Below are positions 25,401 to 59,939 of a stretch of DNA of 64,000 nt, piece after piece (position 1 is the first letter of the stretch; every line of letters begins with the position of its first letter). This DNA comes from Saccharomonospora azurea NA-128. GTDB taxonomy: Bacteria > Actinomycetota > Actinomycetes > Mycobacteriales > Pseudonocardiaceae. Where the stretch lies: NCBI RefSeq assembly GCF_000231055.2, contig NZ_CM001466.1, forward strand, positions 4,575,392 through 4,639,391, written 5' to 3'. Below the pieces are notes generated by a model. It was not told the origin of the DNA. It made no database searches and saw only the letters and a list, made by a program, of their open reading frames with translations. A program made the translations under genes and the position numbers.

Positions 25401-27618
25401 TTCACCGGAGCGGCTCAACGGTTCGGCTCGGGCCGATCTGACCCAGTACGCGCAGTTGGTGCAGCGGGCGGGGAAGCTGACGGGCAAATACGCCGCTGTT
25501 CAGCGTGCGGGTATCCGGCAGGCCATGGAGCGCTGTCGTCCCTCGGTGCCGGCGTGGATCATGCCGATCTACCGCATCGCGGAACAGCTCCGGATCACGC
25601 CCGACATGTTCGACGTCGTCATCGTCGACGAGGCTTCGCAAGCAGGAATGGAGGCGACCTTCCTCCAGTACCTCGCGCCGAAGATCGTGGTGATCGGCGA
25701 CGACAAGCAGGTCTCGCCCTCCGCTGTCGGTGTGGACCAGCAGCAATTGCGAGACCTCGCAGGCCAGTATCTGGCCGGGGATCGTTACCGGGAGTCCTGG
25801 CAGGACCCGCAACGAAGCTTGTTCGACGAGGCGAAAATGCGCTACGGCGGTGTGATCACGCTGACCGAGCACCGGCGCTGCGTCCCGGAGATCATCGGTT
25901 TCTCCAACAGGATCGCATACGAGCCGGACAACATCCGTCTGATTCCGGTGCGGCAGTACGGCGCGGACCGACTCGATCCCGTCAAAGCCGTGTACTTGCC
26001 CGACGGGTATCAACGCGGAACCACTAACAAGATCAACCCGGTGGAAGCGGAGGCGATCGTCGACCAGATCGAGAAGTGCCTGGCCGACCCCGCCTACGAG
26101 AACCGGACCTTCGGGGTCATCTCACTGCTGGGGCCGGCGCAGGCGCGCTACATCGAGTCGAAACTCCTCGATCGCATCGGCAAGGAACAGTGGACGGCCC
26201 GAGACCTGCGGTGTGGCGATGCTTCGGACTTCCAGGGTTCAGAGCGCGACGTGGTCTTCCTGTCGATGGTGGCCGTGCCGGAGGAAGGTCGTCGGCTGGC
26301 GGCGTTGACCGCGGATCGCTATGTCCAGCGCTACAACGTCGCGGTATCGCGGGCCAAGGATCAGGTGTGGTTGTACCACTCCGTCGAGAGGCAGGCGCTG
26401 AACAACAAGGAGGACATGCGATTCCAGTTGCTCGACTACTGCTACGGCGTCATCGAACGAGGACGCTCATCGGACCAGCGCGCGAGTGACCTCGTGCCCG
26501 AGGACGAGCGGGTGCCGCCGTTCGACTCACTGTTCGAGCAGCGGGTGCACAACCGGATCGTCACCCGCGGATACACGGTCGTCCCGCAGTACGAGTCAGC
26601 GGGCTATCGGATCGACCTCGTCGTGGTCGGTGGGGGAGACCGGCTGGCGGTCGAATGCGACGGGGACCGGTGGCATGGTCCGGAGGCTTTCGAACGTGAC
26701 CTCGCGCGGCAACGGGAATTGGAGCGGTGCGGGTGGTCGTTCTTCCGGGTCCGGGAGTCGCTGTTCTACGTCGATCCTGCGGGAGCGCTCGACGGATTGT
26801 GGAAGATGCTCGACGATCGGGACATCCGCCCCGTGGGCGAGTTGAGAGAACCCCCTTGTCGCGCGGAACTTGAGAGCACGACGATCGAGAATCCCGAGCT
26901 CGCGGGCACGTTCGAGCAGACCGGTGGTGAGTCCCCTCCGGAGACGAAGGAGGGGAAGGACGGGACGCCGGAGTCGGCATGGCTTGGGGCACACCTCGGA
27001 GCTGCCACCACGACCGCCGAGAACAGCGACGACACCAGGCACGCGTCGGAAGCCGTCGAGCATGGGGAGGCGGAGGAAGTACGGACACCTGAGCCTCTGG
27101 GCGATGAGACGGTGCCGTACGAGGAGTTCAGCGGGGTCGTGCCACCAGTGGACACTGGGCTGCGTGCCGACATTATTGAAGGTCTCCGCTCGATTGTCGC
27201 GGTCGAAGGGCCGGTTCTGGGTGAGCGGTTGCAGGCGGTGTACGTGAAGGCATCCGGGAAACAGCGTGTCGGCAAGCAGATTGCGAAAAAGCTGAACTCG
27301 GTCATCTCCGATGCCGTGCGTCGTGGTGTGCTGGCCTGCGACAACCCGTTGCAGGTGTCCGGGGTGAAGTACCGGACCTATCGTTTGCCCGGTCAACAAG
27401 TCCGGATACGCGAGCGCGGTCCGCGGAAGCTGGACCAGGTGCCGCCGGACGAACTCGCCGCAATGATGCGGGCTGTAACGCACGAACGTGGCTCGCACGA
27501 CGAGGAGGAGGTCCTGCGGGGCACGGCTGAGCGTTTGGGGGTCGGTCGGCTCACTGAGCAGGTCCGCACGCACCTGCTCTCAGTCCTTCCGTTGGCGCGA
27601 AAAGGAGTCGAGCAATGA
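22408..27618 (+). CDS. UPF1-like SF1 helicase with C-terminal nuclease domain
   Basis: 1,736-residue SF1 helicase. Walker A GPPGTGKTHT lies near residue 388, Walker B VIVDEASQAG near 1071, motif III GDDKQVSP just after, and the RYNVAVSRAKDQ motif VI near 1310. Between the helicase halves, residues 450-1000, is a long helical insertion. A nuclease-like domain follows at about 1375-1470: YRIDLVVV, LAVECDGDRWHG, then WSFFRVRE, the pattern of Vsr/DUF559 PD-(D/E)XK folds. After an acidic linker, the last 180 residues resemble the DUF3320 winged-helix tail of DUF4011-type helicases. This layout suggests unwinding and cutting of invading DNA. The first ATG at 22,408 is used; ATG 22,420 is possible. 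The stop overlaps the start of a 68-codon ORF (ATGA). Domain calls are firm; role in defence is inferred from architecture and context. Confidence 0.85.
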   Translation: MNNTMVERARNLFEFLQRAQELKTTAPRTTDRYQREGEVLWFADFPEHPAVQHANGLTSPASDSPLLTVDRIPRRTPPQPGTGLERWLLGRWDDPDRAPELRESLTIAVRDGAEGDQVTRQVRVTEYPHIREAYESWRAEWAAWAEEELRDRPARDFYNLLFSLFLKVKDSPEEVELVAGTACLSWRPEGHPEVSRHVFTSPLIVEFDDATGRLAVVVGDTPEAFKTELDMLDPGLIKATETVNEVRAAVRALHVHPLDREELGLFGRRLVHALDADGEYRDEDRPAAATEDATVTFAPALILRKRSQRGLVEVFQTLTGQLAGAETVPDGILPLLDPDQVPAVEPTTTGGALVTVDDESFLPMPVNERQREIIERVDRQAQVLVQGPPGTGKTHTAAALISHLLAQGKRVLVTAQTDRALREVRDKLPDQIKPLSVAVVGTSRDDMADLKVAVQEIAAAAHDHDTKRNAREIEGCLAEIDRLRRERAEVYRDLLAARESEVRQHDRGDYRGTLADIAKQIEDQEREYGWVLEHVPEGMADEPPLTGQEVLEWRQHLLDGELAADEPEARQQLVALDALPSPARFATFVTAERGAEARRREREELRHHPAFPAILRLDASQRDELRKRLGRIADEQTVLAGGPEQWIPAALADVCAGREAAWRAQAEQLAALIEQTAQHVQRLGALTEVELPDDDAARMVALAREVLRYLEEGHRVKTAADGTPKVGRLAPKVLKQAQPLFDSVKVDGLPPTNTGQLLAVVTWFEASKMLAALDRTWPGRGDSKTDPLHVRLQWHRTELGQLWRVLRLAEELRAEERRLAELGIPLPDWSDATALNTCQALCDTVEVEKAWAAAQEPLAVLTTTLAEIVGDDVAPVVRRLRAAVDERDADEYGVAHARLARLWAIREQASRRDDLGRRLASAVPGLFRAVAAAPEDATWTGRLERFESAWAWAATRSWVRTQESLDVNALQQRTGRIDDRIRRQVETLAARRAWDYAASPERLNGSARADLTQYAQLVQRAGKLTGKYAAVQRAGIRQAMERCRPSVPAWIMPIYRIAEQLRITPDMFDVVIVDEASQAGMEATFLQYLAPKIVVIGDDKQVSPSAVGVDQQQLRDLAGQYLAGDRYRESWQDPQRSLFDEAKMRYGGVITLTEHRRCVPEIIGFSNRIAYEPDNIRLIPVRQYGADRLDPVKAVYLPDGYQRGTTNKINPVEAEAIVDQIEKCLADPAYENRTFGVISLLGPAQARYIESKLLDRIGKEQWTARDLRCGDASDFQGSERDVVFLSMVAVPEEGRRLAALTADRYVQRYNVAVSRAKDQVWLYHSVERQALNNKEDMRFQLLDYCYGVIERGRSSDQRASDLVPEDERVPPFDSLFEQRVHNRIVTRGYTVVPQYESAGYRIDLVVVGGGDRLAVECDGDRWHGPEAFERDLARQRELERCGWSFFRVRESLFYVDPAGALDGLWKMLDDRDIRPVGELREPPCRAELESTTIENPELAGTFEQTGGESPPETKEGKDGTPESAWLGAHLGAATTTAENSDDTRHASEAVEHGEAEEVRTPEPLGDETVPYEEFSGVVPPVDTGLRADIIEGLRSIVAVEGPVLGERLQAVYVKASGKQRVGKQIAKKLNSVISDAVRRGVLACDNPLQVSGVKYRTYRLPGQQVRIRERGPRKLDQVPPDELAAMMRAVTHERGSHDEEEVLRGTAERLGVGRLTEQVRTHLLSVLPLARKGVEQ

Positions 27619-27830: not shown

Positions 27831-29987
27831 ATGCCCGCACTCGCGTTCGCCAGCAGCTTCTGGGAGACCTACGACGTACTCGACAAGCAGGTCAAGGCCG
27901 GCGTCCGGAAGGCGATGGCCAAATTTCAGCAGCTGTCCATCGCCCAGCTGCACGCGGACAAGGGGCTGCACCTGGAATCCGTGGAGAATGCTCGCGACCC
28001 GCGGATGCGGACCATTCGAGTCACCCAGTTCTGGCGTGGCGTCGTTCTCGCTCCGGACGACGGCAGCGATACCTTCCTGCTGCTCAGCGTCGTCCCGCAT
28101 GACGAAGCTTACGGGTGGGCAGCCAAGCGCCTCTACACCGTCAACACCGCGACCCGCGCGCTGGAAGTGCGTAACGTCGTCGCCATCGAACAACTCACGC
28201 CCTCGCTGGAGGAGGCCTCCGCGCAGGTGCCGACCCGGCTGTTCGCCCGCCACTCCGACACCGTGTTGCGCGACCTCGGCATCGACGATCAGGTGTTGCG
28301 TGCCGCCAGGGCGATCACCGACACAGCCCAGCTCGACGCCTTCGGCGGGGTACTGCCCGAGGACCAGTTCGAGGTGCTCCAGTTCCTCGCCGAGGGCTTC
28401 TCGCCCGAGGAGGTCTACCGAGACGTCGTCACCGTGCGGCGGCCCGTCGAGGTCCCGGCCGAGGCCGGTACCGAGGACAGCCTCGAAATGGCCATCCGCA
28501 ACACCACCAGCCGCATCACCCTCGTTACCGGTCCCGACGAGCTCGCCGACATCCTCGACAAGCCGTTCGCGGCATGGCGGGTGTTTCTGCACCCGTCACA
28601 GCGCCGCGTTGCCTACCGCCCCTCCTACAGCGGGCCCGCACAGGTCAGCGGCGGACCGGGTACCGGAAAGACCGTCGTCGCTCTGCACCGGGTCAAACAT
28701 CTGCTGTCCCGGTCGCCCGACAGCCGCATCCTGCTGACCACCTTCACCAACGCGCTGGCCGACATGCTGCGCGAGAACCTGGCGCTGTTGCTCGACCGCG
28801 ACGAGACGGAATTGGCCCGAGTGCACGTGACCACTGTGGACGCGTTCGCCAACCGGGTCGTGCGCGACTCCACGGGGCGAGCTCAGAATCCCATCACCGA
28901 TATCGACGAGCGGCAACGTTGGCGGCGGATCAGTCGGCGCCTCGGCCTTCCGTGGGGTGATCAGTTCCTCGCCCAGGAGTTCCGGCACGTCATCCTGGCC
29001 CAGAACATCACGAGCGAACGGGATTACCTCCGGGCCACCCGGAGGGGACGCGGCTCCGCGCTGCGGTCGACGCAGCGGCGGCAGCTCTGGCGTGCTGTGG
29101 AGGAGTTTCGTGCCGAGCTGCGGTCGGAAGGCAAGACCACGCACCTCCAGATCTGCGCCCACGCGGCCGATCTGCTCGGCGGAGCCTCCGGCTCGCACCA
29201 CTACGACCACGCCGTCGTCGACGAAGCCCAGGACCTGCACCCGGTGCAGTGGCGGGTGGTGCGCGCCGCCGTCGCCGAGGGACCGGACGACCTGTTCATT
29301 ACCGGGGACCCCCACCAGCGCATCTACGACTCCCGCGTGTCACTGCGGGCTCTCGGCATTCCCGTGGCCGGGCGCAGTAGTCGCTTGCGGATCAACTATC
29401 GAAGCACGGCCGAGATCCTGTCCTGGTCGGTCGGGGTGCTCGCCCACACCAACGTCGAGAATCTGGGTGGGGACGGCGACGACACCCTGATCGGTTATCG
29501 CTCGCTGCTGCGCGGCACCCGCCCCGTGATCGGTGGCTATGTGAGCGAGCAGGACGAAATCGCCGCGCTATCGGAGCATGTGCAGGCCTGGCTGAGGCAG
29601 GGAGTCCGCGCTGACGAGATCGCCGTGTGCACGCGGTTCAACGTCCTACTGGACAAAGTGCGCGACCGGTTGGCGGCCGAGGGCATTCCAGCCGTCAAGG
29701 TCAAAGACCGGCCGGGCGCGCACGTCGACGGCGTGCGGCTGGCGAGTATGCACGCCATGAAGGGCCTGGAGTTCCGCTGCGTGGCTGTCGTCGGAGTCAC
29801 CGCCGGAGCCGTTCCGTTCACCAGGGACGTCACACCTGTGGAGGTGGACAGTGTCGCGCACGCCGGCGACCTACTGAAGGAACGCTGCCTGCTCTTCGTC
29901 GCGTGCACACGGGCCAGGGAGCGGCTCGTGGTGTCGTGGAGCGGTGAGAGCAGCCCGTTCCTGTCGGCGGTGACCGGCGGGCCGTGA
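27831..29987 (+). CDS. UvrD-like SF1 helicase with RelE/ParE-like N-terminus
   Basis: 718-residue SF1A helicase. Residues 1-110 look like a RelE/ParE-type fold (WRGVVLAP, LLLSVVPHDEAYGWAAKR). The helicase follows: Walker A GGPGTGKTVV near 274, DEAQD near 463, GDPHQRIYD near 485, HAMKGLEF, and VACTRARERL close to the C-terminus. This layout is known among bacterial UvrD-like proteins found in defence islands. ATG 27,831 starts the RelE-like part. It probably forms an operon with the larger helicase gene upstream. What the RelE-like part does (RNA or protein binding) is unknown. Confidence 0.83.
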   Translation: MPALAFASSFWETYDVLDKQVKAGVRKAMAKFQQLSIAQLHADKGLHLESVENARDPRMRTIRVTQFWRGVVLAPDDGSDTFLLLSVVPHDEAYGWAAKRLYTVNTATRALEVRNVVAIEQLTPSLEEASAQVPTRLFARHSDTVLRDLGIDDQVLRAARAITDTAQLDAFGGVLPEDQFEVLQFLAEGFSPEEVYRDVVTVRRPVEVPAEAGTEDSLEMAIRNTTSRITLVTGPDELADILDKPFAAWRVFLHPSQRRVAYRPSYSGPAQVSGGPGTGKTVVALHRVKHLLSRSPDSRILLTTFTNALADMLRENLALLLDRDETELARVHVTTVDAFANRVVRDSTGRAQNPITDIDERQRWRRISRRLGLPWGDQFLAQEFRHVILAQNITSERDYLRATRRGRGSALRSTQRRQLWRAVEEFRAELRSEGKTTHLQICAHAADLLGGASGSHHYDHAVVDEAQDLHPVQWRVVRAAVAEGPDDLFITGDPHQRIYDSRVSLRALGIPVAGRSSRLRINYRSTAEILSWSVGVLAHTNVENLGGDGDDTLIGYRSLLRGTRPVIGGYVSEQDEIAALSEHVQAWLRQGVRADEIAVCTRFNVLLDKVRDRLAAEGIPAVKVKDRPGAHVDGVRLASMHAMKGLEFRCVAVVGVTAGAVPFTRDVTPVEVDSVAHAGDLLKERCLLFVACTRARERLVVSWSGESSPFLSAVTGGP

Positions 29988-30040
29988 GCCCCGGCGAAGG
30001 CGCGGCCACACCGCTGGTCGCTAGCCGTGCCATCCCACTC

Positions 30041-31291
30041 TCACGGTTCGTCGGTGGAGTGTCCGGAAGTGTTCCCGGATGCCGCGTGGCGCGCCAGATC
30101 GGCCAGGAGGTCGGTGGCCACACTCTCCTCAACCACCGCTTGGTCGTGGGCGAGAATGGTGCCCGCGAGATCGGGATCCCACGGTGCTTCGGTGACGCGT
30201 CCTGGGGCAGGGGCCTGGGCACCCGGGCGGAGACCGCGCAGGTAGTCGCCGGTGGTCATCCGCCACGGCCGCGCGCCCGTCTTCTCCATGACATACGCGG
30301 CGATGCGCAGGCCCTCGCCGTCGAAGTCCCCGTGGTAGTGCAGCCGGGTGCCGAGAGCCGTCATACCGCGCAGGAGCAGCACCACCGCGGTGTTGGGCCA
30401 GCCCGATGTGCACACGATCGGCGGACAGGTAGTGCCGAATTCGCGAAGCGCCATCGCGATAATGCTGGGATTTTCCACCACCCACACTCGCTTCGGTGCC
30501 GCGTGTAGTTCGGTCGCGCGAAGCTGTGCCAGGGTGAGCGTCACGGCGTGCCCGGCCTCGGTGCAGCACCTCACGAGGTCGCAGACCACGCCACGTCCAC
30601 CCAGTCGCAAGCCGGCCGTCAGGGCGACGCTGGACAGCTCGTCCGCGGCTACGCCCGCCCGCTCCCACAACACCCGGCGCTCGTAGGCGGTGTCGGGGAC
30701 CGGGGCGTCGAAGATCGTGGCCAACGCACGCAGGACGAGATTGCCGAGGCGGGTGCCGTCGTCCAGCGCGTGCGGATCGCCCGTGACCTCACTCGCGAAG
30801 GTGGGCAGCGGTTGCCCCTCGGCGGGAAGCCGGGCCAGCACACTCAGCACCGTCGAAAGGATCTCGCGTGTTCTGTCGACGGATCCGTTGATCAGTCCCG
30901 CGCGGCGCACTTGTGCAGCCCAACTCGACAGTGTGGGTTGGCGCCGTATCTCGGGATGGGTGTCCAGCCAGTCCCACAACTCCGCGCGGCGAGCCTCGGC
31001 ACGGGCGCGTTCCGCGGCTCGGTCGGCGATCGGGCCGACCAGCGCGGTGACGACCGTGGAGATGTCCGTGCCAGCCTCGGCCAGCACCGTTTTCAGCGCT
31101 GTCATCGACACCGTGTAGTGCTCGTCCGGCGTCCGGTCCAGCCCCAACAGGTCGGCCACAGCCGCGCGCTGCTCGCGATTCAGCGGTCCGATGCGGACAC
31201 GCGTGACGGCGCGACCCGACGAGAGCCGCGTGTGCACCGTCTCCCAAAGAGGACGTAGAGCCGCTGCGCGCAACGGGTCGGGCACAGTCAA
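30041..31291 (-). CDS. jetD: Wadjet JetD, DUF2399 Toprim nuclease subunit
   Basis: JetD is the nuclease of Wadjet, cutting plasmids extruded by the JetABC SMC motor. This 416-residue protein matches the TIGR02679/DUF2399 type: VVENPS near residue 280, TSGWPN, and the Toprim-like HGDFDGEG at about 320-327 with the DxD metal site. The TTG start overlaps the upstream jetC stop (TTGA). It is the last gene of the minus-strand jetABCD operon and is convergent with the UvrD-like gene, 53 bases apart. All expected acidic residues are visible, so it should be active. Confidence 0.87.
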   Translation of the reverse strand: MTVPDPLRAAALRPLWETVHTRLSSGRAVTRVRIGPLNREQRAAVADLLGLDRTPDEHYTVSMTALKTVLAEAGTDISTVVTALVGPIADRAAERARAEARRAELWDWLDTHPEIRRQPTLSSWAAQVRRAGLINGSVDRTREILSTVLSVLARLPAEGQPLPTFASEVTGDPHALDDGTRLGNLVLRALATIFDAPVPDTAYERRVLWERAGVAADELSSVALTAGLRLGGRGVVCDLVRCCTEAGHAVTLTLAQLRATELHAAPKRVWVVENPSIIAMALREFGTTCPPIVCTSGWPNTAVVLLLRGMTALGTRLHYHGDFDGEGLRIAAYVMEKTGARPWRMTTGDYLRGLRPGAQAPAPGRVTEAPWDPDLAGTILAHDQAVVEESVATDLLADLARHAASGNTSGHSTDEP

Positions 31292-32217
31292 CGTTCTTCA
31301 CCCGCCCAATCCATGCCGGTCCAGACAAATCGCGCCGTGGTCACGGCATCATCGTCGTCGTCGGTCACGAGCTGGTGGATGGCGATACCCGGTAGCTCCC
31401 GGTAGGCGCACCATTCGTGGTCGGAGGTCAGCACCAGGTCGAGGTCGAGGGAAGCGAGCAGCTCGAACACCTGGCCGCGGTTGCTGGAATCGACGCCGAC
31501 GAACACCTCGTCCAGCAGAATCAGCCTCGGCGCGGACGGCACCGCCTGGTAGTGCGCCGCCACAGCGGCGAATAGCGGCAGGTGCAGCGCGATCGCCTTC
31601 TCACCACCGGACAGGGCGCCATGCAGTTTCTTCGTCAGCGGCTGCCATCCTTTGCCGTCGGCACGGTCGAGCTTCACCACGAACCGATGCCAGGCGGTGT
31701 AGTCGAAGACCTGCGCGAGTTGTTCCCGCCAGTTCGACGAGGTGTTGTCGGCCCTGGCCGCTTCGATTCGTTCCCGGAAGAACCGGTGCAGAGATTCCCG
31801 GTCGGTTTCCGAGAGCCACACCGGGTCCTTGAGCAGTAGTTGCCGGGCGTCCTTGGTGCCGGCGGGAAGATCCTGATCGACCTGCCACACCAGTCGCACG
31901 GCCACCCGGGAAGCGGTGCGGACCCGTTCGAGCCGCGCGTTCATCGCGTCGACTAGCTCGCCTGCCTGCCGGATTCGGTCGGCCAGTTGACGCCGCGTGT
32001 CACCGGTGAGGGTTCGGTCGAACAGCTCCCGCTCCGCTTCGGTGAGGTCGTCGCGACTGCGTTCGGCCTCGGCACGCAAGGTCTCGAGCAGCTCGTGCGC
32101 ACCCACTCGCGTGCCGTCCAGGACAGCGGTGAACACCCGCACTTCGTTGTCCGCTTCCAACTCGAGGTCGGCACGACCACTGAGCACGTCCCGGCACGCA
32201 TACACGGTCTCGTTCAA
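31288..32217 (-). CDS. jetC: Wadjet JetC, C-terminal part (signature and Walker B)
   Basis: 309 codons holding the C-terminal ATPase half of the SMC-like JetC (TIGR02680 type): ABC signature LSGGEKAIALHLPL at 202-215, Walker B RLILLDEVFVGVD at 231-243, and the D-loop/switch LVLTSDHEW. Walker A is in the preceding ORF. The frame stays open and sensible upstream of the TTG (PTLPHEPKHINDALHRLNET), showing that the two ORFs were once one gene; a one-base loss in GGCCCACCC near 32,266-32,274 explains the split. The TTG overlaps the previous stop as TTGA, so translational coupling could still supply this half. Confidence 0.85.
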   Translation of the reverse strand: MNETVYACRDVLSGRADLELEADNEVRVFTAVLDGTRVGAHELLETLRAEAERSRDDLTEAERELFDRTLTGDTRRQLADRIRQAGELVDAMNARLERVRTASRVAVRLVWQVDQDLPAGTKDARQLLLKDPVWLSETDRESLHRFFRERIEAARADNTSSNWREQLAQVFDYTAWHRFVVKLDRADGKGWQPLTKKLHGALSGGEKAIALHLPLFAAVAAHYQAVPSAPRLILLDEVFVGVDSSNRGQVFELLASLDLDLVLTSDHEWCAYRELPGIAIHQLVTDDDDDAVTTARFVWTGMDWAGEER

Positions 32218-35200
32218 CCGGTGTAGAGCATCGTTGATGTGTTTCGGCTCATGCGGAAGGGTGGGCCACTTCGATGCACCGCTCGCGCGGCTTCCAGCGC
32301 CGCGGTGACTGCGCCGGAACCTGTGAAGTCGGCTTCAAGGTCGGCATCATCGATCAGAGTGCTCGTGGCCAGCCGGTGGAACCGATCAGCGGCGTTGTCG
32401 CGTGCCAGGACAGCCTCGTTCCGGCGCTCAGCGTCCTGTGCGAGGCGTGCTTCGAGGCCGCCGATCCGCCCGTGCAGCTTCATGAGTTGCTCACCCGCCT
32501 GCTCGTCCTGTTCGACGAGTTGCTGCCGCAGGCACCGCTGTTGCTCCAGCTCCTCCACGATCTGCCGTAGATCGTCGGCATCGACCAGGCGTTCCAGAGT
32601 GCGAAGCTTTCCAGCGAGGATCTCCGCGTCCTCGGCGGTGCGTTCGGCAGTGGCTTGGTGCTCGGCGGCCTCGGCCTCCGACCGTCCCGCCGCATCGAGG
32701 AGCAGTTCGGCACGCGACCGGGCGGTGACCAGACTGGTGTGCTGGTCGAACCAGATTTGGGCACGCTCGTGGAACGCCTCCAACGCGTGACCGAGCTTCT
32801 CCAGGGCCTCCCGCCCGGTCGGCATGCCGTATTCCGTGCCCGCGAGGTGTAGTGCATGTTGGGCGTGCCGCACGGACTCCTCGTGATCGTGCAGGCGTTG
32901 CGAGGCCGCATGGACCAGGCTGTCGGCGGTGGCCACTGCGCTTTCTGCGTCATTCAGTTCCTTCCGGACCTGATCGACCCGGGTGTGCGGAGGCCGGCGT
33001 TCGCGTTCGACGGCCAGTGTGCGGCGGCGCTGCGCGAGTCGCTCGGACCATGCCTTCAAGCCGGCAAGCTCCCGATCCGCGTCGTCGAGCTGCTCGGTCA
33101 GTTCGGTGATACGACGTTGCCTGCTCCGCTCGCGGGCCGCGGCGCCGATGTGTTCGACGTCGTTTTTGGCCCAGCTACCGGTGGCTGCACCCAGCCGCCA
33201 CCGTCCGTCGGCTCCACATGCCGCGGGGTGCTCATCCGGTAGTGTGTCCCCGAACGCGATCCTCGTCAGCAACTCCTCGATCCGCTCGACAGGCACGGGG
33301 CCGCCCGCTTCGGCAACTAGAACCTCACGCAGGGAACGGCCTGGTGCCGGTTTGAGCAGGGTGCCGTCAACGAATGTGTCGTGGCCGTCGACCACCAGCA
33401 CCCCCGACGGACTCATCCAGGCATCCAGCAGGCCCGCTGCCTGCAGAGCGGCCTCGACGGCCGCCTGGACCGGGGCCGTGACGTGGTCGGCGAAAGCGAC
33501 AAGCCGCCACAGCGGCGCGCCCGCCATCCGGGTGCGGTCGGCGGTGCGGTGCGGCGGAGCCTTCGGCGGGAGGTCAACCTCCTTCTGCAGCTTCTCAAGG
33601 CGCATCACCAGCTCGGCTCGCGTGGTTTCGACCTGTTGCCGTCGCCCAGCGAGGGTGGTCTCCTCGACCGTGAGGTCGTGCTGACGCCGCTCGGCCGCCT
33701 CGGCGATACGAGTCAGAATCGCTGCCTCGGAGTCAGCGATCCCCACCAGTACTGTGGTGTCGTCGAAAACCAGTTCCCTGCACGCACTCGCCCACTCCAG
33801 GAGCGCTCGCTCGTGCTCCTTCAGCACGTCGTCGTACCGGTCGGCCAGCGTGTCCTTGAGGTTGTTCGCTCGGGACAGCTCCGTCCGGGCGGCTTCCAGC
33901 CCGTGCTCCGCCTCCGTGCGCGCGTCGACGGCCCGCTCGTGCTCGTCCAGCGCTCGGCGCACCGACTCGATCGCCTTCCGCCGGCCCCGTACTGCTGCCC
34001 GCAGCAGTTGCCTGCTGTGGGCGTTCGGCTGTTCCAGCGTGTCGACCAACTCGCCGTAGGCGGAGTCGAGTCCCGCACGCCTGGCAACACCAGCGCACTC
34101 CTCCGCCGCTACACGGACTCGTTCCACCCACTGTTCTACGGCCTGCGCCGCATCGTCGGCCGCGTCGCGGTCGGTGGCGGCGGCCGTGGACTTCCGCTCG
34201 GCTACCGCGGCCTGCTCGCGAGCCGCTCGTTGAGCTTTTCCAGTGCGGCGGCGTAGGTCGTCGAGCTCTTCGCCTTTTTCGTACAGGTCGTGTTTCGTCA
34301 AACCCTCGATGCTGGCATCGGTTTGCCGGATCGCCGCAGCAAGATCCTTGCGTTGTTGTTGGGCAGCCGTCCTCGCGACGACAGCCTCCTGGTGTTCGGT
34401 TTCCGATTGCCGGGCGGCCCGGGTTACCTCGGTCATTCTCGTGGTGGCAGCTATCAGGTCGGCCGACGCCGCGCGCAGCACGCGTTGGGCGTAGGAGCGC
34501 TGCCGGGCGGAGATCTTCCGTGCAGCCTCCACCTCCTCGTCCAGCTTCTTCAATCGCTCGCCTTGCTGGTCAAGGCGTTCAAAGCCCTCCGCCAGCTCCG
34601 TGATGTCCTCCTGATCCAGCGGCGGCAACGCCCGGGACAGCAGCGAGGACAGCAGGCCAGGGTCGAGACGCTGCGACAGTTTCGGTGTGCGTAGTTGCAG
34701 CAACGCGGTGATCAACGCTTCGTAGCGTTGCTCCGACAGCCCGGGAAACAGCAGCTGCCGCACCGCGGCGCGATATTCCGACGCGTTCGAATGGACCGTT
34801 CCACGGCCGTGCAATTGTTCGGCCAGTACAGCCTTGGTCAACGGCTGGCCGGAGGCGTTGGTCAGCGAGAGATCCGTGCCGATCCGCAGCGAGGTCGTGA
34901 AGTAGTCAGCGGTGACGCCGGTGGTGCGGGTGGTGGCTTGCAGTCTAGCTCCGCAGGTGACGTACTCGTCGTGGTCAGAATTCCGGGCGAACTCGAGCCA
35001 CACGTAGCCGACCCGGGTGGTACCCGAGGCGCCCTCTCCCATGAGGTTCCAGTGCATGGTCCGCTCGGAGGTGCCGAACGTGGACAGGCGGTTGGGGCGA
35101 AGGCTCGCGTCGAACAGGTACGGCAACAACAGTTCGAGCACCTTCGATTTGCCGCTGCCGTTCGGCCCCCGTAACAGCAGCCGACCGTTGTGGAATTCGA

Positions 35201-35303
35201 ATACCTCGTCGTAGTAGCGCCAGACATTGAGGATGCCGGCTCGCGTGGGCTGCCAGCGACCGGCTTCCGCGGCGGCTTTGGTGGGCAGTTCGGCGATGGT
35301 CAC
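32214..35303 (-). CDS. jetC: Wadjet JetC, N-terminal part (Walker A and coiled coil)
   Basis: 1,029 codons with the N-terminal ATPase lobe of an SMC-like protein: RGPNGSGKSK at about 45-54, then very long heptad-rich coiled coils, a central hinge-like region around residues 610-700, and a returning coil. The combined 1,029 plus 309 residues equal a normal single-chain JetC of this type. The reading frame ends early at GPPFRMSRNT..LYTG after a frameshift. The start is GTG, overlapping the jetB stop (GTGA). JetC is the loop-extruding motor of Wadjet; without the C-terminal half it cannot hydrolyse ATP. Confidence 0.86.
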   Translation of the reverse strand: MTIAELPTKAAAEAGRWQPTRAGILNVWRYYDEVFEFHNGRLLLRGPNGSGKSKVLELLLPYLFDASLRPNRLSTFGTSERTMHWNLMGEGASGTTRVGYVWLEFARNSDHDEYVTCGARLQATTRTTGVTADYFTTSLRIGTDLSLTNASGQPLTKAVLAEQLHGRGTVHSNASEYRAAVRQLLFPGLSEQRYEALITALLQLRTPKLSQRLDPGLLSSLLSRALPPLDQEDITELAEGFERLDQQGERLKKLDEEVEAARKISARQRSYAQRVLRAASADLIAATTRMTEVTRAARQSETEHQEAVVARTAAQQQRKDLAAAIRQTDASIEGLTKHDLYEKGEELDDLRRRTGKAQRAAREQAAVAERKSTAAATDRDAADDAAQAVEQWVERVRVAAEECAGVARRAGLDSAYGELVDTLEQPNAHSRQLLRAAVRGRRKAIESVRRALDEHERAVDARTEAEHGLEAARTELSRANNLKDTLADRYDDVLKEHERALLEWASACRELVFDDTTVLVGIADSEAAILTRIAEAAERRQHDLTVEETTLAGRRQQVETTRAELVMRLEKLQKEVDLPPKAPPHRTADRTRMAGAPLWRLVAFADHVTAPVQAAVEAALQAAGLLDAWMSPSGVLVVDGHDTFVDGTLLKPAPGRSLREVLVAEAGGPVPVERIEELLTRIAFGDTLPDEHPAACGADGRWRLGAATGSWAKNDVEHIGAAARERSRQRRITELTEQLDDADRELAGLKAWSERLAQRRRTLAVERERRPPHTRVDQVRKELNDAESAVATADSLVHAASQRLHDHEESVRHAQHALHLAGTEYGMPTGREALEKLGHALEAFHERAQIWFDQHTSLVTARSRAELLLDAAGRSEAEAAEHQATAERTAEDAEILAGKLRTLERLVDADDLRQIVEELEQQRCLRQQLVEQDEQAGEQLMKLHGRIGGLEARLAQDAERRNEAVLARDNAADRFHRLATSTLIDDADLEADFTGSGAVTAALEAARAVHRSGPPFRMSRNTSTMLYTG

Positions 35304-36526
35304 GAGCTCTCCTTGCTGGTTCGGATCTCGGTGACGGAATAGCGCGCGGCTGCAGGCAGCGCACGTACCTGGCTTCCGGTGTGCTCAACGAGCCGGAACG
35401 ATGCCAGCACGTCGAGCGCGTCGTGCACGAGTCGTTCGGTGCCGTCCTCACCTCGGTACGTTTTTGCCCACCGCGGGAACCGGGTCAGCAACCTTGCCGC
35501 CTCGGCGTGAAGCTGCTCCACGGTCAGACCTAGGGGAGCGCTGACGAGTGTGTCGAGGAGCAGCAGACCCGCGACGTTTGCCGTGCCCGAGTCGTCGGGG
35601 AACTTGCGGTCCGTCGCGATCGCGTCAGGATCGACGAGCAGATAACCCTCGGCACGCTCCTCCAGCACGAACCCCGCCTGCTCGGCTGCGCGTTGCACCA
35701 CCTGCCGCCCGGTGAGAGAGGCCAGATAGTGGCTCTGTTCCTCACTGAGTTCACACCGGTAGAGAACTGGCTCGTCGAACAATCTCCGACAGATCGAGTG
35801 CCGTAACCATAGATTGCGTTGCACATCGGAGGCCGACATTTCCCCGTCACCGTAACGGGTTTCCCGAGTCAACCCCGTGAGCAGCTCCGCCCAGCGCTGC
35901 ACGACCTCGTCCGGCGAGGGGGCAAGCTGTGAAGGACCTCTCGGTGCGGACAACAACCGCAGTAGCAACGTGGTGTCGACCCGGTAGAGCACCTTGGCCT
36001 CACGGGAATCCACGAACGTATCCGTACTGCCATCGACAGTGTCGAGCACGCCATAGGACTCCAATAGCCGGAGTGCGTCGACATAGGCCATGCGTTCGGA
36101 CCGCGCCGCGGTGTCAAAGGTTTCCAACACCGGATCGGTGGCAGTCGCGTACTTCACGCGATCGGCGAGCAACCCGATTGTCGTGACGGGCCCGGACAGT
36201 AGTTCGGCCGCGATCACACACAGCAACGTGTACCGTCTGCGGTCGAATGGGACTCGGCCGGACCGTGAGCGGCGTGCAGGCCGGGTGTGATCGTGCTCGC
36301 TGGTCACCTTGGCAAGGCGGGCATAACCGAACCTCGGTTCCACCACCAGTCGCCATCCGCACGTGTAGTCGAACCACTTCGCGATGGGACCATGTCGTCT
36401 GCGGACCAGATCGAATGCGTCCGGTGCTGTTCTCACGCTGATCAGCGGTGTCGCCAGCAGCAACCGGACTCCTCTCGCGACATCCTGTTTCTCTGAGATG
36501 ACAAGCTGGTTGGCAAGATTGCTCAT
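35300..36526 (-). CDS. jetB: Wadjet JetB, DUF2398 (kite-like) subunit
   Basis: 408-residue protein of the DUF2398/TIGR02678 type, the winged-helix dimer that binds the SMC motor in this Wadjet class. Recognisable features are the N-terminal ARGVRLLLATPLI, WFDYTCGWRL, and FDRRRYTLLCVIAAEL segments. It overlaps jetA by ATGA and jetC by GTGA, so all subunits are translated together. No enzymatic motif is expected or seen. Confidence 0.85.
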   Translation of the reverse strand: MSNLANQLVISEKQDVARGVRLLLATPLISVRTAPDAFDLVRRRHGPIAKWFDYTCGWRLVVEPRFGYARLAKVTSEHDHTRPARRSRSGRVPFDRRRYTLLCVIAAELLSGPVTTIGLLADRVKYATATDPVLETFDTAARSERMAYVDALRLLESYGVLDTVDGSTDTFVDSREAKVLYRVDTTLLLRLLSAPRGPSQLAPSPDEVVQRWAELLTGLTRETRYGDGEMSASDVQRNLWLRHSICRRLFDEPVLYRCELSEEQSHYLASLTGRQVVQRAAEQAGFVLEERAEGYLLVDPDAIATDRKFPDDSGTANVAGLLLLDTLVSAPLGLTVEQLHAEAARLLTRFPRWAKTYRGEDGTERLVHDALDVLASFRLVEHTGSQVRALPAAARYSVTEIRTSKESS

Positions 36527-38064
36527 GCCGTCGCTTCCTCCACGGTGTCGTCGCTGTCGTCGGCGACGGAGGTACTGACGTCGACGAGGTAGTCGGGCCC
36601 GGTGAACACACCTCGAGGTGTGCGGAGCGAGGCTCGTGCTCCGTCGTGCGGCGGACGCAGCACGATCTCCACCCTGCCGTCGGTGGTAGCAGCGCGGCGC
36701 GCACCGGAGGTGTCCGGTCGCGTGGCCAGTGCCCGGCCGAGCAGGTCGAGCAGCCGTTCGAACGTATCGTGGTCGAGCTCGGCGAAGGTGGAGAGCCTAA
36801 CCGGCCCTCCTGTGGCGAGTTGTCGCCAGGCGCGGCGCAGCTGCATCCGTTGAGCGCGGGCGCGTTCTGCTCTCTCGCGTTTGAGCGCGGCGACATCGCG
36901 TACCCTGCCGGTGCGGGCGACCTTTTCAGTCCGGCCTGCGGTTCGCAGCAGAGGTGATACCGGAACCGGTGGGCCCTCGTGCCAGGAGGTCGACGAACTG
37001 ACGAGCTCCGGATCTGGTTGGGCCAGGTGTGCGTGGCGGGCGGAGCCGAGCCCGAACGCCGCTGAGAACAGCCGATGCAGGTCGTTCTCCGTCGGCGCCA
37101 GGGTGAACCAACGGGCCAGTTCCCGGAAATCAGCGACCGCACTGCCGGCCCGGTGGCGCGATTCCGCGATCCGGTCGAGTACCTGCAGCAGGGTCACGAT
37201 AGCCCGTCGCGCGACCACATGGAGCTGCTCCACTCGCGGGGGTGTGTCGTCCTCGGGCAGGAACCATGCACGCAGGCCGGCCCAACGGCTGCGTCGGAGT
37301 GCCAGCCAGCTTGCTCGGACCTCATTCCCGGGTGATGGGGGCAGGTCGGCCCCTGTCAGTGCGCGCTCGTGCAGGGTGTTCAGACCGTGTTTCTCGAGGT
37401 GGCCTATACCATCCGCGATCGCCTGTGCTCGCCGCTCCAAATTGGTCAGGAACTCCTCCAGATAAGCCACTGTGGCGGTCTTGACCTCGCGGAAGGTCGT
37501 GAGGTCGGCGCTTTCCGCCCGCAGCAGCCGTTGCAGCTCGCTGTTGAACTGCTTCGTGTTGGTGCGCAGGGCGTCCAGGTGGTTCTCCAGCTCGGTGAGC
37601 GTGGTGAATATCTTCCGATCACTCGCCGCAGCGTCCGTGAGTAGCTTGTGCAGCTCTGCCAGTCGGTCGGCAATGGCATCCAGCACGGCTGTTTGCAACG
37701 CCCCGGTGGAGGCCAGCACGGTTAACGCGTGCTGGACACCGGCGAAGGCAGCCTCACCACGTTTGGTGAGGGAGTACTGCAGGTTACGGCGCTCGTATTC
37801 CTCGGCTGTACGGTAGTTCTCCGCGTGGTTCTGGATGACGTCGACGAGTTGCCAGTCCCGCAGCTTCTGTAAATCGCGAGCGAGGTCGTCGTTGGTCAGG
37901 GCGCCGAACCAGCCCACCGTGCGCAACCGCTGTTGCACTTCGTCGAGGCTCAGCGAGGTCTCCAGCCGTTCGTTGGCCTCCGCGAATGCGCGCAGAATCG
38001 CTGTGTAGGTGTCGGCGTTCTCGCCGACGCTGAACCGGAACAATTCCGGGGGGATCCGCTCCAT
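36523..38064 (-). CDS. jetA: Wadjet JetA, DUF2397 (kleisin-like) subunit
   Basis: 513-residue DUF2397/TIGR02677 protein, the kleisin-like first subunit of this Wadjet class that bridges the motor heads. It begins MERIPPELFRF, has a long helical middle, and ends with an acidic tail after ELDHDTFERLLDLLGRAL. ATG 38,064 is chosen because GGAGG precedes it by 6 bases and the family starts at this residue; an upstream ATG at 38,142 adds 26 residues with no homology. First gene of jetABCD. Confidence 0.87.
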   Translation of the reverse strand: MERIPPELFRFSVGENADTYTAILRAFAEANERLETSLSLDEVQQRLRTVGWFGALTNDDLARDLQKLRDWQLVDVIQNHAENYRTAEEYERRNLQYSLTKRGEAAFAGVQHALTVLASTGALQTAVLDAIADRLAELHKLLTDAAASDRKIFTTLTELENHLDALRTNTKQFNSELQRLLRAESADLTTFREVKTATVAYLEEFLTNLERRAQAIADGIGHLEKHGLNTLHERALTGADLPPSPGNEVRASWLALRRSRWAGLRAWFLPEDDTPPRVEQLHVVARRAIVTLLQVLDRIAESRHRAGSAVADFRELARWFTLAPTENDLHRLFSAAFGLGSARHAHLAQPDPELVSSSTSWHEGPPVPVSPLLRTAGRTEKVARTGRVRDVAALKRERAERARAQRMQLRRAWRQLATGGPVRLSTFAELDHDTFERLLDLLGRALATRPDTSGARRAATTDGRVEIVLRPPHDGARASLRTPRGVFTGPDYLVDVSTSVADDSDDTVEEATA

Positions 38065-38146
38065 CACACCTCCAGCGCGGGCCAGCGTAGGGGCTCGGTC
38101 CGACGGAATCCCGAATCTTTCGTGGCCGTTGGAACACGCCATCGGA

Positions 38147-38812
38147 TCATGTCGGAGAAGAGCTCGGAAGCCCGGCTGTCATGCCGTGCGAAGTCAACGG
38201 CCGGTGTCTTGCCACCTGAAGGGCGTCGGCACGCAGGGGACGCATGGTTCCTGCATCGCCTCCGTCGAGATGGCGGCGCAGCCGCTGGAGTGCGCGGTGC
38301 TGCGCCACCCGCACCGCCGCCGGGGTCGAACCCACGATCGTGGCCGTTTCGGCTGCGCTCAGGCCCGCGGCCACGCGCAGCACGAGGATCTCGCGCTGTG
38401 CCTCGGTCAGCAGTCCGAGCAGCTCACGCATCCGCTCGCCGAGTTCGGCGCGCAACACCCGCTGTTCCGGGCCGGGCTGCGGATCGGCACTGTCCACCGG
38501 GTCGGCGGCCAGGTGGGCGCGGTCCCGGCTGCGGGCCCGGTGGTGGTCGGCCACCTTGTTGGCGGCGATGCCGAAGACGAACGACAGGAAACTGGCCTCC
38601 TGGCCCCGGAAGCGGTGCAGTGAGGCCAGGACCGCCGCGAAAACCTCCTGGGCGACGTCGTCGGCGGCCGTGTGGTCGTGCCCGTTCGGGCGGATGCGGG
38701 CACGGCAGTAGCGGATGACCTTCGGTCGCAACGCCGTGAAGAGGGCGTTCGTGGCGTCCCTGTCCCCGGCGCGGGCGGCTGCGACCTGTTCCGCGAGCTG
38801 GTTCATCTGCAT
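38147..38812 (-). CDS. ECF-type RNA polymerase sigma factor (ShbA-like)
   Basis: Alternative sigma factor of 221 residues with sigma-70 region 2 (TAADDVAQEVFAAV, then FLSFVFGIAANKVADHH) and region 4 (LTEAQREILVLRVAAGLSA, VRVAQHRALQRLRRH). It is closest in character to the actinobacterial ShbA group, from memory. ATG 38,812 follows GGGGGACC; earlier in-frame codons carry no homology. About 40 residues after region 4 (to the stop) are a variable tail. It is 82 bases upstream of jetA on the same strand and divergent from the methylase gene. No anti-sigma gene is adjacent, so its targets are unknown; it might transcribe the Wadjet operon, but that is only suggested by position. Confidence 0.82.
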   Translation of the reverse strand: MQMNQLAEQVAAARAGDRDATNALFTALRPKVIRYCRARIRPNGHDHTAADDVAQEVFAAVLASLHRFRGQEASFLSFVFGIAANKVADHHRARSRDRAHLAADPVDSADPQPGPEQRVLRAELGERMRELLGLLTEAQREILVLRVAAGLSAAETATIVGSTPAAVRVAQHRALQRLRRHLDGGDAGTMRPLRADALQVARHRPLTSHGMTAGLPSSSPT

Positions 38813-38937
38813 GGAAGGTCCCCCGGTGAAGCGTTTCGGACGAACGGGTCCGGTCGTGGGCTGCCAGCTCGGTGGAGGGAGGCCGGAGCGTCGTGGACCC
38901 GAGACTCGTTGTGAACGAGCAAAGTGAAGCATGTGCT

Positions 38938-38979
38938 GTGAACATAGTCAACAACGAGATTGGTGTGTGGTATGTTCAC
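38938..38979. promoter_or_regulatory. Inverted repeat between sigma factor and methylase genes
   Basis: GTGAACATA (38,938-38,946) and TATGTTCAC (38,971-38,979) form a perfect 9-bp inverted repeat with 24 bases between. A third GTGAAC half-site is at 38,911. The right arm covers the proposed ATG of the methylase gene. The layout suits a DNA-binding site controlling both divergent genes, possibly autoregulation through the HTH at the methylase N-terminus. Confidence 0.5.
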
Positions 38980-40909
38980 GCTGGTGAATGGGGGTGCGGT
39001 GCACGGCGAAGAGAACCTGGTGAGCGCGGCGGACGTGGCGCGGCTGGCGGGAGTCGGACGGGCGGCGGTCAGTAACTGGCGGCGTCGCCATCCAGACTTC
39101 CCGGAACCGGTGAGTGGTTCGGCGGGAAGCAGATTCCGGCTGGCCGAGGTCGAGCGATGGCTACGGAGCCAGGGAAAGCTTCGCGCCGCGGACGGGGAGG
39201 ACACCTTGTGGCGGGCCGTCTCCGTCGGGCGCGACGACACGGAGATCACCCGACTGCTCGGGGACGTGCTCGAACACCTGCACGGTCATTCCGGAGTCGA
39301 CCTCCCCGCCCCGGTGCGGGACGAGGTCGACCGGATCGAGGCAGCTGCCCGCGCCGACACCGCCGAACAGCTCTGCCTGCGTCACGTCGAGGCGTCGAGG
39401 CGGCGGCACTCCGCCACCACCGTCGAACTCGCGGAACTGATGGCGGAACTGTCCGATCCGCACGGAGTCGTACTCGACCCGGCCTGCGGTATCGGCAACG
39501 CGCTTCGGGCCGCCGCCGGGCGCGGTGCGGAAAGAGTCCTCGGCCAGGAACTCGATCCGGACCTCGCGCGGCTCGCGCAGGCACGACTGCGGTTCCACGC
39601 GCCCGCCTCCGTGGTCGCGGGCGACGCGCTGCGTGCCGACGGCCATCCCGACATGCGGGCCGACGTCGTGTTCTGCGAGCCGCCCTTCGGCTATCGCGAC
39701 TGGGGCTACGAGGAGCTCGGCGTCGACCGGCGCTGGGACTACGGGCTTCCGGTGAAGAACGAGCCGGAGCTGGCCTGGCTTCAGCACTGCCTGGCACACG
39801 TCCGTCCCGGCGGGTTCGTGGTCGGGTTGCTGCCCGCCGCCGTCGCCTCCCGCCGTTCCGGGCGGCTCGTCCGCAAGGAACTCGTCCGCCGGGGAGTGGT
39901 GCGCGCCGTGTTCGCCCTGCCCGCCGGATTGCTCGCCACCACGGGAATACCGCTGCATCTCTGGTTGCTCCGAGCGCCCGCCGACGACGACACACCGATG
40001 TCCGTCCTGCTGGTGGACGCGAGCGAGCACGGGGGCCGGGCACGCGGTGAAGCCGACTGGCCCGCGCTACGCTCCGCCGTCCTGGAACCGTGGAAGGCGT
40101 TCCGCGGCGGCGCGTTCGAACCGGTGCCGGGCCGCCACGACATCGTGCAGGCGATCGACCTCCTCGACGAGGACGTCGACCTGACTCCGGCACGCCACCT
40201 GCCCATGCCGCGCGCGGTCGTCGACCCGGCAGAGCTGGACGTCCGGCGGCGCCGGTTGCGGGAGGTGTTGACAGACGCGGCCGAACTACTGCCCACCGTC
40301 ACGGCACAGCCGCCGGGGACGCACCCGACCCTGACGATCTCCGAGCTCGCCAAGGCCGGAGCGTTGACTGTGCGGCAGCACACCGGCAAGCTCGAACTGT
40401 CCGATTCGGACGAAGTTGCCGGTGAGCTGGTACTGACCGGCCGGGATGTCGCCGACGGCGTGGGCCCGACACTGCGGCTGGCGCGAACCGTGGACACCGA
40501 ACTCGTGCACCTCGTGCCGGGTGACGTCGTCGTTCCCACCCTCGTCGCAGGCGGCACGCATGCCGTGGCGGGCGTCGTCGAGGAGCCGGGGCTGATCCTG
40601 GGCCCCAACCTGCACCTGCTCCGGGTCGATCCGGCCCGCCTCGACGCCGAATTCCTCGCGGGCTACCTGTCCGCGAGCCGCACGACCGCGGCGGGCGGCA
40701 CCACGGTGTCCGGGGCGAGGCGACTCGACGTCCGGCGCGTCGGAGTGCCGTTGCTGCCCATTGCCGAGCAACAACGGCTGGGCAGGGCCTTCCGGGCCGT
40801 GCGCTTGTTCCGGGAGCGGCTGCGGGAGGCGGGCGAACTCGCGGACCTGCTCGGCAGGCAACTTGTTGACGGTCTGGCCGACGGGCTGCTCGACGTTCCG
40901 GACCGGTAG
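38972..40909 (+). CDS. HTH - N6-adenine methylase - HsdS-like specificity fusion
   Basis: 645-residue DNA methylase. Residues 17-65 form a MerR/AlpA-like helix-turn-helix (SAADVARLAGVGRAAVSNW). The methylase core shows SAM motif I DPACGIGNA near 170 and motif IV CEPPFGYRDWG near 237, where NPPY/F is usual; the acidic first residue is atypical. Residues 440-620 resemble a type I HsdS target-recognition domain (LIAEQQRLGRAF-like LPIAEQQRLGRAF end). No hsdR or separate hsdS is adjacent, so it is an orphan modification enzyme. Start is uncertain: TTG 38,960, ATG 38,972, GTG 38,999 and GTG 39,020 all fit. Such proteins occur in actinobacterial genomes; their targets are generally unknown. Confidence 0.8.
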   Translation: MFTLVNGGAVHGEENLVSAADVARLAGVGRAAVSNWRRRHPDFPEPVSGSAGSRFRLAEVERWLRSQGKLRAADGEDTLWRAVSVGRDDTEITRLLGDVLEHLHGHSGVDLPAPVRDEVDRIEAAARADTAEQLCLRHVEASRRRHSATTVELAELMAELSDPHGVVLDPACGIGNALRAAAGRGAERVLGQELDPDLARLAQARLRFHAPASVVAGDALRADGHPDMRADVVFCEPPFGYRDWGYEELGVDRRWDYGLPVKNEPELAWLQHCLAHVRPGGFVVGLLPAAVASRRSGRLVRKELVRRGVVRAVFALPAGLLATTGIPLHLWLLRAPADDDTPMSVLLVDASEHGGRARGEADWPALRSAVLEPWKAFRGGAFEPVPGRHDIVQAIDLLDEDVDLTPARHLPMPRAVVDPAELDVRRRRLREVLTDAAELLPTVTAQPPGTHPTLTISELAKAGALTVRQHTGKLELSDSDEVAGELVLTGRDVADGVGPTLRLARTVDTELVHLVPGDVVVPTLVAGGTHAVAGVVEEPGLILGPNLHLLRVDPARLDAEFLAGYLSASRTTAAGGTTVSGARRLDVRRVGVPLLPIAEQQRLGRAFRAVRLFRERLREAGELADLLGRQLVDGLADGLLDVPDR

Positions 40910-59041: not shown

Positions 59042-59046
59042 ACATC

Positions 59047-59109
59047 GTGTCCGCGCCTCCCGCACGCGTGTCCGCACTTCCCGCACGCGTGTCCGCGCCT
59101 CACGTACGC
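59047..59109 (+). repeat. Three 21-bp tandem repeats
   Basis: Units at 59,047-59,067, 59,068-59,088 and 59,089-59,109 each begin GTGTCCGC and end ACGC, with 2-3 substitutions between them; a partial fourth unit follows (CCGTCCGCGG). They fill the gap after hutI and run into the end of the convergent TetR gene. Confidence 0.75.
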
Positions 59110-59939
59110 CCGTCCGCGGAGGTCTCCAGGACCACCCCCACGCCGTCGAGCACGCGATCGAGTCCGAAGCCGAACCACCGGTCGAGCTCGACGGCGGTCG
59201 GCTCGGACGCGGGGCTGGTCTCGAACAGCTCGGTGAGCCACGGGTAGCGCCCGGAGTCGATCACAGCGGACAGTCGCCGATGCTGCACAGCCCACCAACG
59301 CCGTCCGTTGACGTCCCCCGCCGCATCATCGTCCACAGTGAGCAGAGCCATGCCCTGCACGTAGCCGCTGACCAGGAGATACAGCGACAACTGCGTCCGC
59401 CGATCGAGTCCCGCGCCGTCGAGCGCGGTGAAGTAGTGGTCCACCGTCCACACCATCGACGGCGAGAGCGTGGGACGGCTGGTGGCGAGGACGCGCAGCA
59501 GCCACGGATGCCGTCGGTAGAGGGCCCACTCCTGACGGGCCGCGTCCTCGATCCGCTCACGCCACCCGGTGGCAGGCGGCCGCTGGTGGGCGATCTCGGC
59601 GAAGACCGCGTCGACCATCGCCGTCACGAGCTCCGACCTGCTGCCGATGTGGTGGTACAGCGACATGGCGGCCACGTCCAGGTGTGCCGCGAGTCGGCGC
59701 AGCGAGACCGCCGACAGCCCCTCCGCGTCGGCGAGTTCGATCGCGTTCGCCACGATGTCGGCGCGCGTGAGCGGTGTGGCGGGGCCGGTGCGCGAGGGAG
59801 ATCGACCGCGGCGCGGCGGTGGTGCCCCGCCGTCCCGCCGCGCCCGGTACGCCCGGGCCTGGCAGGCGCGCCCGCAGTAGCGTCGCGGCCTGCCGCGGTC
59901 ACGCTGCACCAGGGGCGATCCGCACTGTGCGCACCTCAA
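59100..59939 (-). CDS. TetR-family regulator with N-terminal zinc-ribbon-like segment
   Basis: 279 residues. The first 35 (LRCAQCGSPLVQ, YCGRACQARAYRAR) have the spaced cysteines of a zinc ribbon, then an Arg/Pro linker and a normal TetR HTH (IVANAIELADAEGLSAVSLR, YHHIGSRSEL) with a TetR_C-type sensor domain. The TTG at 59,939 is preferred because AAGGAG lies 8 bases upstream; the longer open frame to 60,044 has no homology and would overlap the divergent gene's start. Divergent from the GNAT gene, with two inverted repeats between. Confidence 0.82.
   Translation of the reverse strand: MRCAQCGSPLVQRDRGRPRRYCGRACQARAYRARRDGGAPPPRRGRSPSRTGPATPLTRADIVANAIELADAEGLSAVSLRRLAAHLDVAAMSLYHHIGSRSELVTAMVDAVFAEIAHQRPPATGWRERIEDAARQEWALYRRHPWLLRVLATSRPTLSPSMVWTVDHYFTALDGAGLDRRTQLSLYLLVSGYVQGMALLTVDDDAAGDVNGRRWWAVQHRRLSAVIDSGRYPWLTELFETSPASEPTAVELDRWFGFGLDRVLDGVGVVLETSADGRT

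Follow-up and report, generated by a model that had tools for sequence, protein, structure and literature searches.

JetA, JetB and JetC of the Wadjet systems are a kleisin, a KITE and an SMC protein, and, according to the available part of PMC10586767, plasmid suppression needs all four subunits and DNA cleavage requires ATP and a functioning JetC ATPase. The complex of Neobacillus vireti, a type II system, cuts naked circular DNA, and a type I JetC core without the elbow-to-hinge part, its coils joined by a nine-residue linker, retained plasmid cleavage (PMC12647877, in the part available). A null mutation of EptABCD in a laboratory strain of Mycobacterium smegmatis is associated with greatly improved plasmid uptake (PMC10586767, same part). 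A frameshifted jetC is already known in print: Figure 3G-H of the PADLOC paper, as far as its accessible text goes, uses a frameshifted type I jetC as a worked example and treats it as a pseudogene (PMC9252829).

Here we describe a jet operon of Saccharomonospora azurea NA-128, found in a window of 64,000 nucleotides (the whole stretch of DNA that was analysed). As in the PADLOC example, a jetC frameshift interrupts the Wadjet operon, although that example is of type I and from another locus (PMC9252829, accessible text). The M. smegmatis EptABCD null is likewise the loss of a Wadjet operon, as is proposed here for S. azurea (PMC10586767, available part). The type II Wadjet with a solved JetC (PDB 9qe0/9qe1) shares with our locus the A-B-C-D order and the family models of all four proteins, but its JetC is one chain of 1371 residues, whereas S. 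azurea jetC lies in two frames. This 9qe0 chain is probably the JetC of nvJET from Neobacillus vireti, to judge from a reference in the available part of PMC12647877. The operon of S. xinjiangensis XJ-54 (G011:C2, ~85.4-97.8 kb) encodes JetA-D proteins with 82-96% identity to those of S. azurea; its jetC reads through as one frame of 1342 aa where S. azurea has two, and the block lies in a different chromosomal neighbourhood.

A type II jet operon with jetC in two frames

The jet genes of the window are contiguous on the minus strand (38142-30041), overlap by 4 bases and each match their own type II model in the order JetA-B-C-D, that of a type II Wadjet (Table 1). From the gene layout, jetABCD is predicted to be one operon. 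The frames of JetA, JetB and JetD are uninterrupted and come close to the full length of their models, and JetD, which has the DUF2399 domain, retains VVEN and DFDGEG, presumably the Toprim catalytic motifs.

Table 1. Features of the S. azurea jet operon (window coordinates)
Feature	Position	Strand	Evidence
JetA type II (TIGR02677, DUF2397), 539 aa	36523..38142	-	NCBIfam 4.7e-149; JetA2 6.2e-265; PF09660
JetB type II (TIGR02678, DUF2398), 408 aa	35300..36526	-	NCBIfam 4.2e-103; JetB2 2.3e-134; PF09661
JetC N-terminal frame, 1029 aa, GTG start	32214..35303	-	TIGR02680 5.5e-218; JetC2 3.8e-289; 9qe0_A 4.8e-52
JetC C-terminal ORF, 309 aa, TTG start	31288..32217	-	TIGR02680 3e-115; PF13558 SbcC_Walker_B 1.4e-22
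JetD type II (TIGR02679, DUF3323 + DUF2399), 416 aa	30041..31291	-	NCBIfam 6.9e-102; JetD2 2.8e-141; PF11796, PF09664
Frame-change site, window one base short relative to intact orthologues	32269..32279	-	S. xinjiangensis alignment; composition change point
20 C-terminal-frame codons upstream of the TTG, conserved as JetC	32218..32277	-	5/5 differences synonymous

The preliminary description had proposed that the two ORFs together equal one JetC, and the profile searches, in which the C-terminal frame was taken from 32289, bear this out. The N- and C-terminal ORFs consecutively cover positions 1-1027 and 1027-1353 of TIGR02680 (1356 positions), and positions 5-1030 and 1028-1353 of the JetC2 model PDLC00553 (1361 positions). 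In both halves type II is preferred over type I (JetC2 3.8e-289 vs JetC1 2.9e-07 for the N-terminal half, 1e-127 vs 4.6e-08 for the C-terminal half), and both match chain A (JetC) of 9qe0, in order. The N-terminal ORF carries GPNGSGKS; this is probably followed by a coil, the hinge and the larger part of the returning coil, and the final residues, past ~32,277, are outside the homologous frame. The C-terminal ORF carries LSGGEK, LILLDEVF and the remainder of the head lobe. The three motifs, which we take to be the Walker A, signature and Walker B of JetC, are all present and identical to those of S. xinjiangensis in a motif alignment, with Walker A and Walker B in separate halves. Since JetC is not encoded as a single continuous polypeptide (its two frames are offset by the base missing near 32,278), the locus is classed from its sequence as a Wadjet II with an interrupted jetC rather than as an intact system.

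One base is missing from jetC

When jetC was aligned with its S. xinjiangensis orthologue (86.5% nucleotide identity), the sole uncompensated frame-changing difference was a single base that the window lacks near 32,278. All other gaps of 1 or 2 bases form cancelling pairs, and one 12-base gap preserves the frame. Codon-position composition, which uses no homologue, switches frame at 32272, and positions 32269-32277 score within 1.75 log units of that optimum. The C-terminal frame stays open upstream of its TTG to 32334, as expected from the earlier remark that the homologous frame continues upstream of the second start. The same remark had placed the lost base near 32,270. The loss itself is supported by the alignment, the composition and the open frames of the relatives, whereas the position was about 8 bases off; the comparison with orthologues that had been suggested yields a single-frame S. 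xinjiangensis gene with one base more near 32,278.

Between 32,201 and 32,340 no homopolymer reaches four bases, no in-frame slippery heptamer X XXY YYZ occurs in 32,210-32,340, and the window is free of N runs. An AlphaFold2 model (27 sequences; mean pLDDT 70.2 and pTM 0.39, hence of moderate quality) was built for the last 498 residues of the S. xinjiangensis protein. In this model the frame change corresponds to about residue 170, near the end of a helix (159-175) and past a long coil. The TTG corresponds to L190, which lies within a predicted helix (180-201) and is invariant in the 27 sequences.

jetC is open across the site in relatives

From a scan of named genomes the best 80 of 193 loci were taken. 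In all 80 of them the frame is open across the break site, and in 74 it stays open over 991 or more residues upstream of it. Of the remaining six of these best 80, L065 and L072, which belong to S. iraqiensis and S. saliphila, are interrupted by 100-N gaps and L080 runs into the end of its contig; the frames of L063, L110 and L126 are broken without N and away from the site of the window. A broken jetC frame was thus found in 3 of the 77 assessable named relatives among the best 80 of 193, and some of these could be errors. No gap was present around the break column in any of 75 intact orthologues, and the short frames of S. iraqiensis and S. saliphila end at 100-N scaffold gaps or where a contig stops.

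In a family-wide search, at least 257 of 390 genomes had a JetC match. The short frames examined in this set were those of G004, G007, G233 and G250 (among those left out were G205, G298, G299, G327 and one G029 copy). In G004 and G007 they are assembly gaps. Expressed in approximate residues of the 1342-residue orthologue, the N-free breaks fall at 505-777 (L063), 602 (L110), 163-234 (L126), 885-900 (G233), and 772-789 and 779-831 (two G250 copies); some of them may themselves be sequence errors. Loci L132, L133 and L134, which are G233 and the two G250 copies, likewise have jetC frames broken at other places. The break position was examined at 13 loci, the window included. A recurrent natural split was rejected among these loci: the other breaks are gaps or a contig end, or are not at ~residue 1010. 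Within the relatives examined, the split is private to the S. azurea record.

Recent mutation or an error in the record

We consider it very probable that the locus is an ordinary type II Wadjet operon whose jetC has suffered a single-base loss, this being either a null mutation of very recent date or a mistake in the record. Lineage-private changes were polarised with outgroups by parsimony, excluding the codons with an unassignable ancestor (94 in JetA, 71 in JetB, 219 in JetC-N, 41 in JetC-C and 68 in JetD). JetC-C accumulated 2 N/19 S changes in the window and 2 N/21 S in the sister, S. xinjiangensis (Fisher P = 1.0). The N/S counts were 47/62 vs 36.8/56.2 in JetC-N (Fisher P = 0.67) and 24.5/27.5 vs 18/23 in JetD, so that the ratio is marginally above that of the sister in JetC-N (0.76 vs 0.65) and JetD (0.89 vs 0.78), but not significantly. 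For JetC-C, the counts speak against neutral evolution over 0.1 of the branch (P = 0.023) and permit a share of 0.05 (P = 0.167); the bounds are looser for JetC-N, which allows 0.1 (P = 0.19), and for JetD, which allows 0.2 (P = 0.09). From these substitutions, the neutral time for JetC-C would be at most about a tenth of the branch. No decay, together with codons that are still constrained, implies that the loss is very young, or that full-length protein is still made, or that the loss is not in the organism.

The last of these cases, a living strain whose jetC is in one frame and whose type II Wadjet works, hidden by a sequencing or assembly error, is possible but rather unlikely. It would account for the absence of significant decay in either JetC half or JetD and for the conservation of the frame on both sides of the break site. 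Furthermore, NA-128 is represented by a draft in which 96 contigs make up one scaffold (PMC7990883, available part). Against it stand the sequence around the site, which offers neither the homopolymer nor the N run mentioned above, and the following control.

Proteins of S. xinjiangensis were compared with a syntenic 400-kb region of the same S. azurea genome (198 orthologous queries, 72,232 aa). With a strict codon-position filter, raw frame changes were seen in 5 of 198 queries in S. azurea and in 5 of 200 in the sister. One of the five S. azurea cases spans 100 N, and in the other four, which we judge to be over-extended starts, the first piece has a non-coding-like composition; the five of the sister are in our judgement alike, two or three of them less clearly. 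By this judgement, there was no clean frame change among the 198 queries of that one region. A laxer gene filter gave apparent frame changes in 12 of 193 queries (S. azurea) and 14 of 162 (sister). In non-syntenic regions, 11 orthologous queries gave one frame change in S. azurea, that of jetC, and 9 gave one in the sister.

From the control we estimate an error rate below ~3 per 217 kb, or below ~6% per 4 kb gene. The clean control mildly counts against a single-slip error. The ~6% bound is close to the rate of broken jetC frames among relatives (3/77), so that error and mutation would both fit the data; we lean towards a fresh null mutation in preference to an error.

The TTGA junction and the translation of the two halves

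The preliminary description had also observed that the TTGA junction between the two JetC frames is like the other coupled starts of the operon. As an observation this is correct, the junctions being ATGA (JetA/B), GTGA (JetB/C) and TTGA (JetC/D). The two halves could then be made by coupled termination and restart at the TTGA and reassemble as one SMC head that drives plasmid restriction, a split motor that would fit the retention of every ATPase motif, the absence of visible decay and the shared form of the overlaps. In the moderate AlphaFold2 model, moreover, the break appears to fall at the end of the coil, ahead of the head lobe. We regard such a motor as improbable, on the following grounds.

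The same one-base loss was imposed on 75 intact orthologues in the alignment, without counting the row of the window. The first stop then encountered was an NTGA in 74 of 75, and it overlapped an ATG, GTG or TTG start in the homologous frame in 40 of 75. Since an NTGA is expected in 74/75 orthologues after the same loss, the TTGA overlap is no evidence of coupling. The TTG itself is the conserved leucine codon of the predicted helix 180-201, followed by A, and in S. xinjiangensis it is CTG. Furthermore, the 20 codons before the TTG, which would be absent from any restarted protein, are still under JetC constraint: five of them differ from S. xinjiangensis, and the differences are synonymous in 5/5 cases in the joined frame and in 0/5 in the other. 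By eye, a Shine-Dalgarno sequence is present at the jetB and jetC starts and absent before the TTG; this is a weak argument, since none is clear for jetA or jetD. None of the best 80 of 193 loci from named relatives is broken at the site, and in ecJET(core) the coils remained joined by a nine-residue linker (PMC12647877, available part). More generally, these results caution that NTGA overlaps in G+C-rich genomes do not prove translational coupling.

Programmed -1 frameshifting, which would yield full-length JetC from the two-frame gene, is very improbable. The second frame, open to 32334, would leave ~120 bases for the shift, and the absence of decay would be accounted for; but that interval contains no in-frame X XXY YYZ heptamer and no homopolymer of four or more, and the two-frame layout is not conserved, the sister and 80/80 of the named relatives (best 80 of 193) being open without any shift. 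That the broken frame marks a long-dead Wadjet remnant is scarcely credible, for the frames of the other three genes are open and close to full length, and the JetC halves evolve like those of the intact sister, unless the parsimony polarisation is badly wrong. Of the three outcomes first offered for this island (a dead Wadjet, a split but working motor or a sequence error), a long-dead system is thus disfavoured and the split motor has lost its main argument, while a recent null mutation and an error both fit the data.

A probable mobile defence block around the operon

Positions 29049-40909 of the window are collinear with the S. xinjiangensis Wadjet block, and the flanks match S. xinjiangensis elsewhere (598.9-614.6 kb, 219.4-227.3 kb and other places). 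A collinear block whose flanks match other places points to a mobile defence block, and the operon probably sits in one.

Several neighbouring genes were recorded. Divergent from the jet operon, at 38960-40909, lies a gene for an HTH and N6-methyltransferase-like protein, which accompanies the Wadjet block in S. xinjiangensis. On the other side, a gene at 27831-29987 codes for a UvrD-like helicase whose top PADLOC matches are GajB. Its collinearity with the S. xinjiangensis Wadjet block is confined to the final part (29049-29991), and judging from this alignment a recombination junction may lie inside the gene. A further helicase of 1736 aa, encoded at 22408-27618, carries an MTES_1575 nuclease domain at its C-terminus and corresponds to the PADLOC candidate PDC-S37; its S. 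xinjiangensis relative maps to 220-225 kb, apart from the Wadjet block. In addition, a G+C-rich unit of 21 bases is repeated in 3.5 copies at 59046-59118. This stretch has more than 50 matching places in S. xinjiangensis, several of them in 42-base steps, and belongs to a dispersed repeat family.

Consequences of the frame break

An SMC head requires both lobes, and a JetC without the signature and Walker B lobe forms no working head; because of this, the operon as written should be inactive. Under our preferred reading, a fresh null mutation, the single-base loss would lie about three quarters along jetC, where the returning coiled coil approaches the head. Ribosomes beginning at the normal start would make the Walker A lobe with the greater part of the coil before leaving the frame and stopping ~64 bases on, and the signature and Walker B lobe would be encoded in a separate frame. 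The incomplete SMC head would be expected to support neither ATP hydrolysis nor DNA extrusion nor activation of the JetD nuclease, so that the operon as written would have lost its function and be plasmid-permissive.

If the frameshift is an error, the sequence record needs correction. If it is real: i) S. azurea NA-128 provides its genus with a naturally Wadjet-negative strain, which would be a useful plasmid-permissive host, and ii) the locus is a fresh case of defence-system turnover, with an intact sister at hand.
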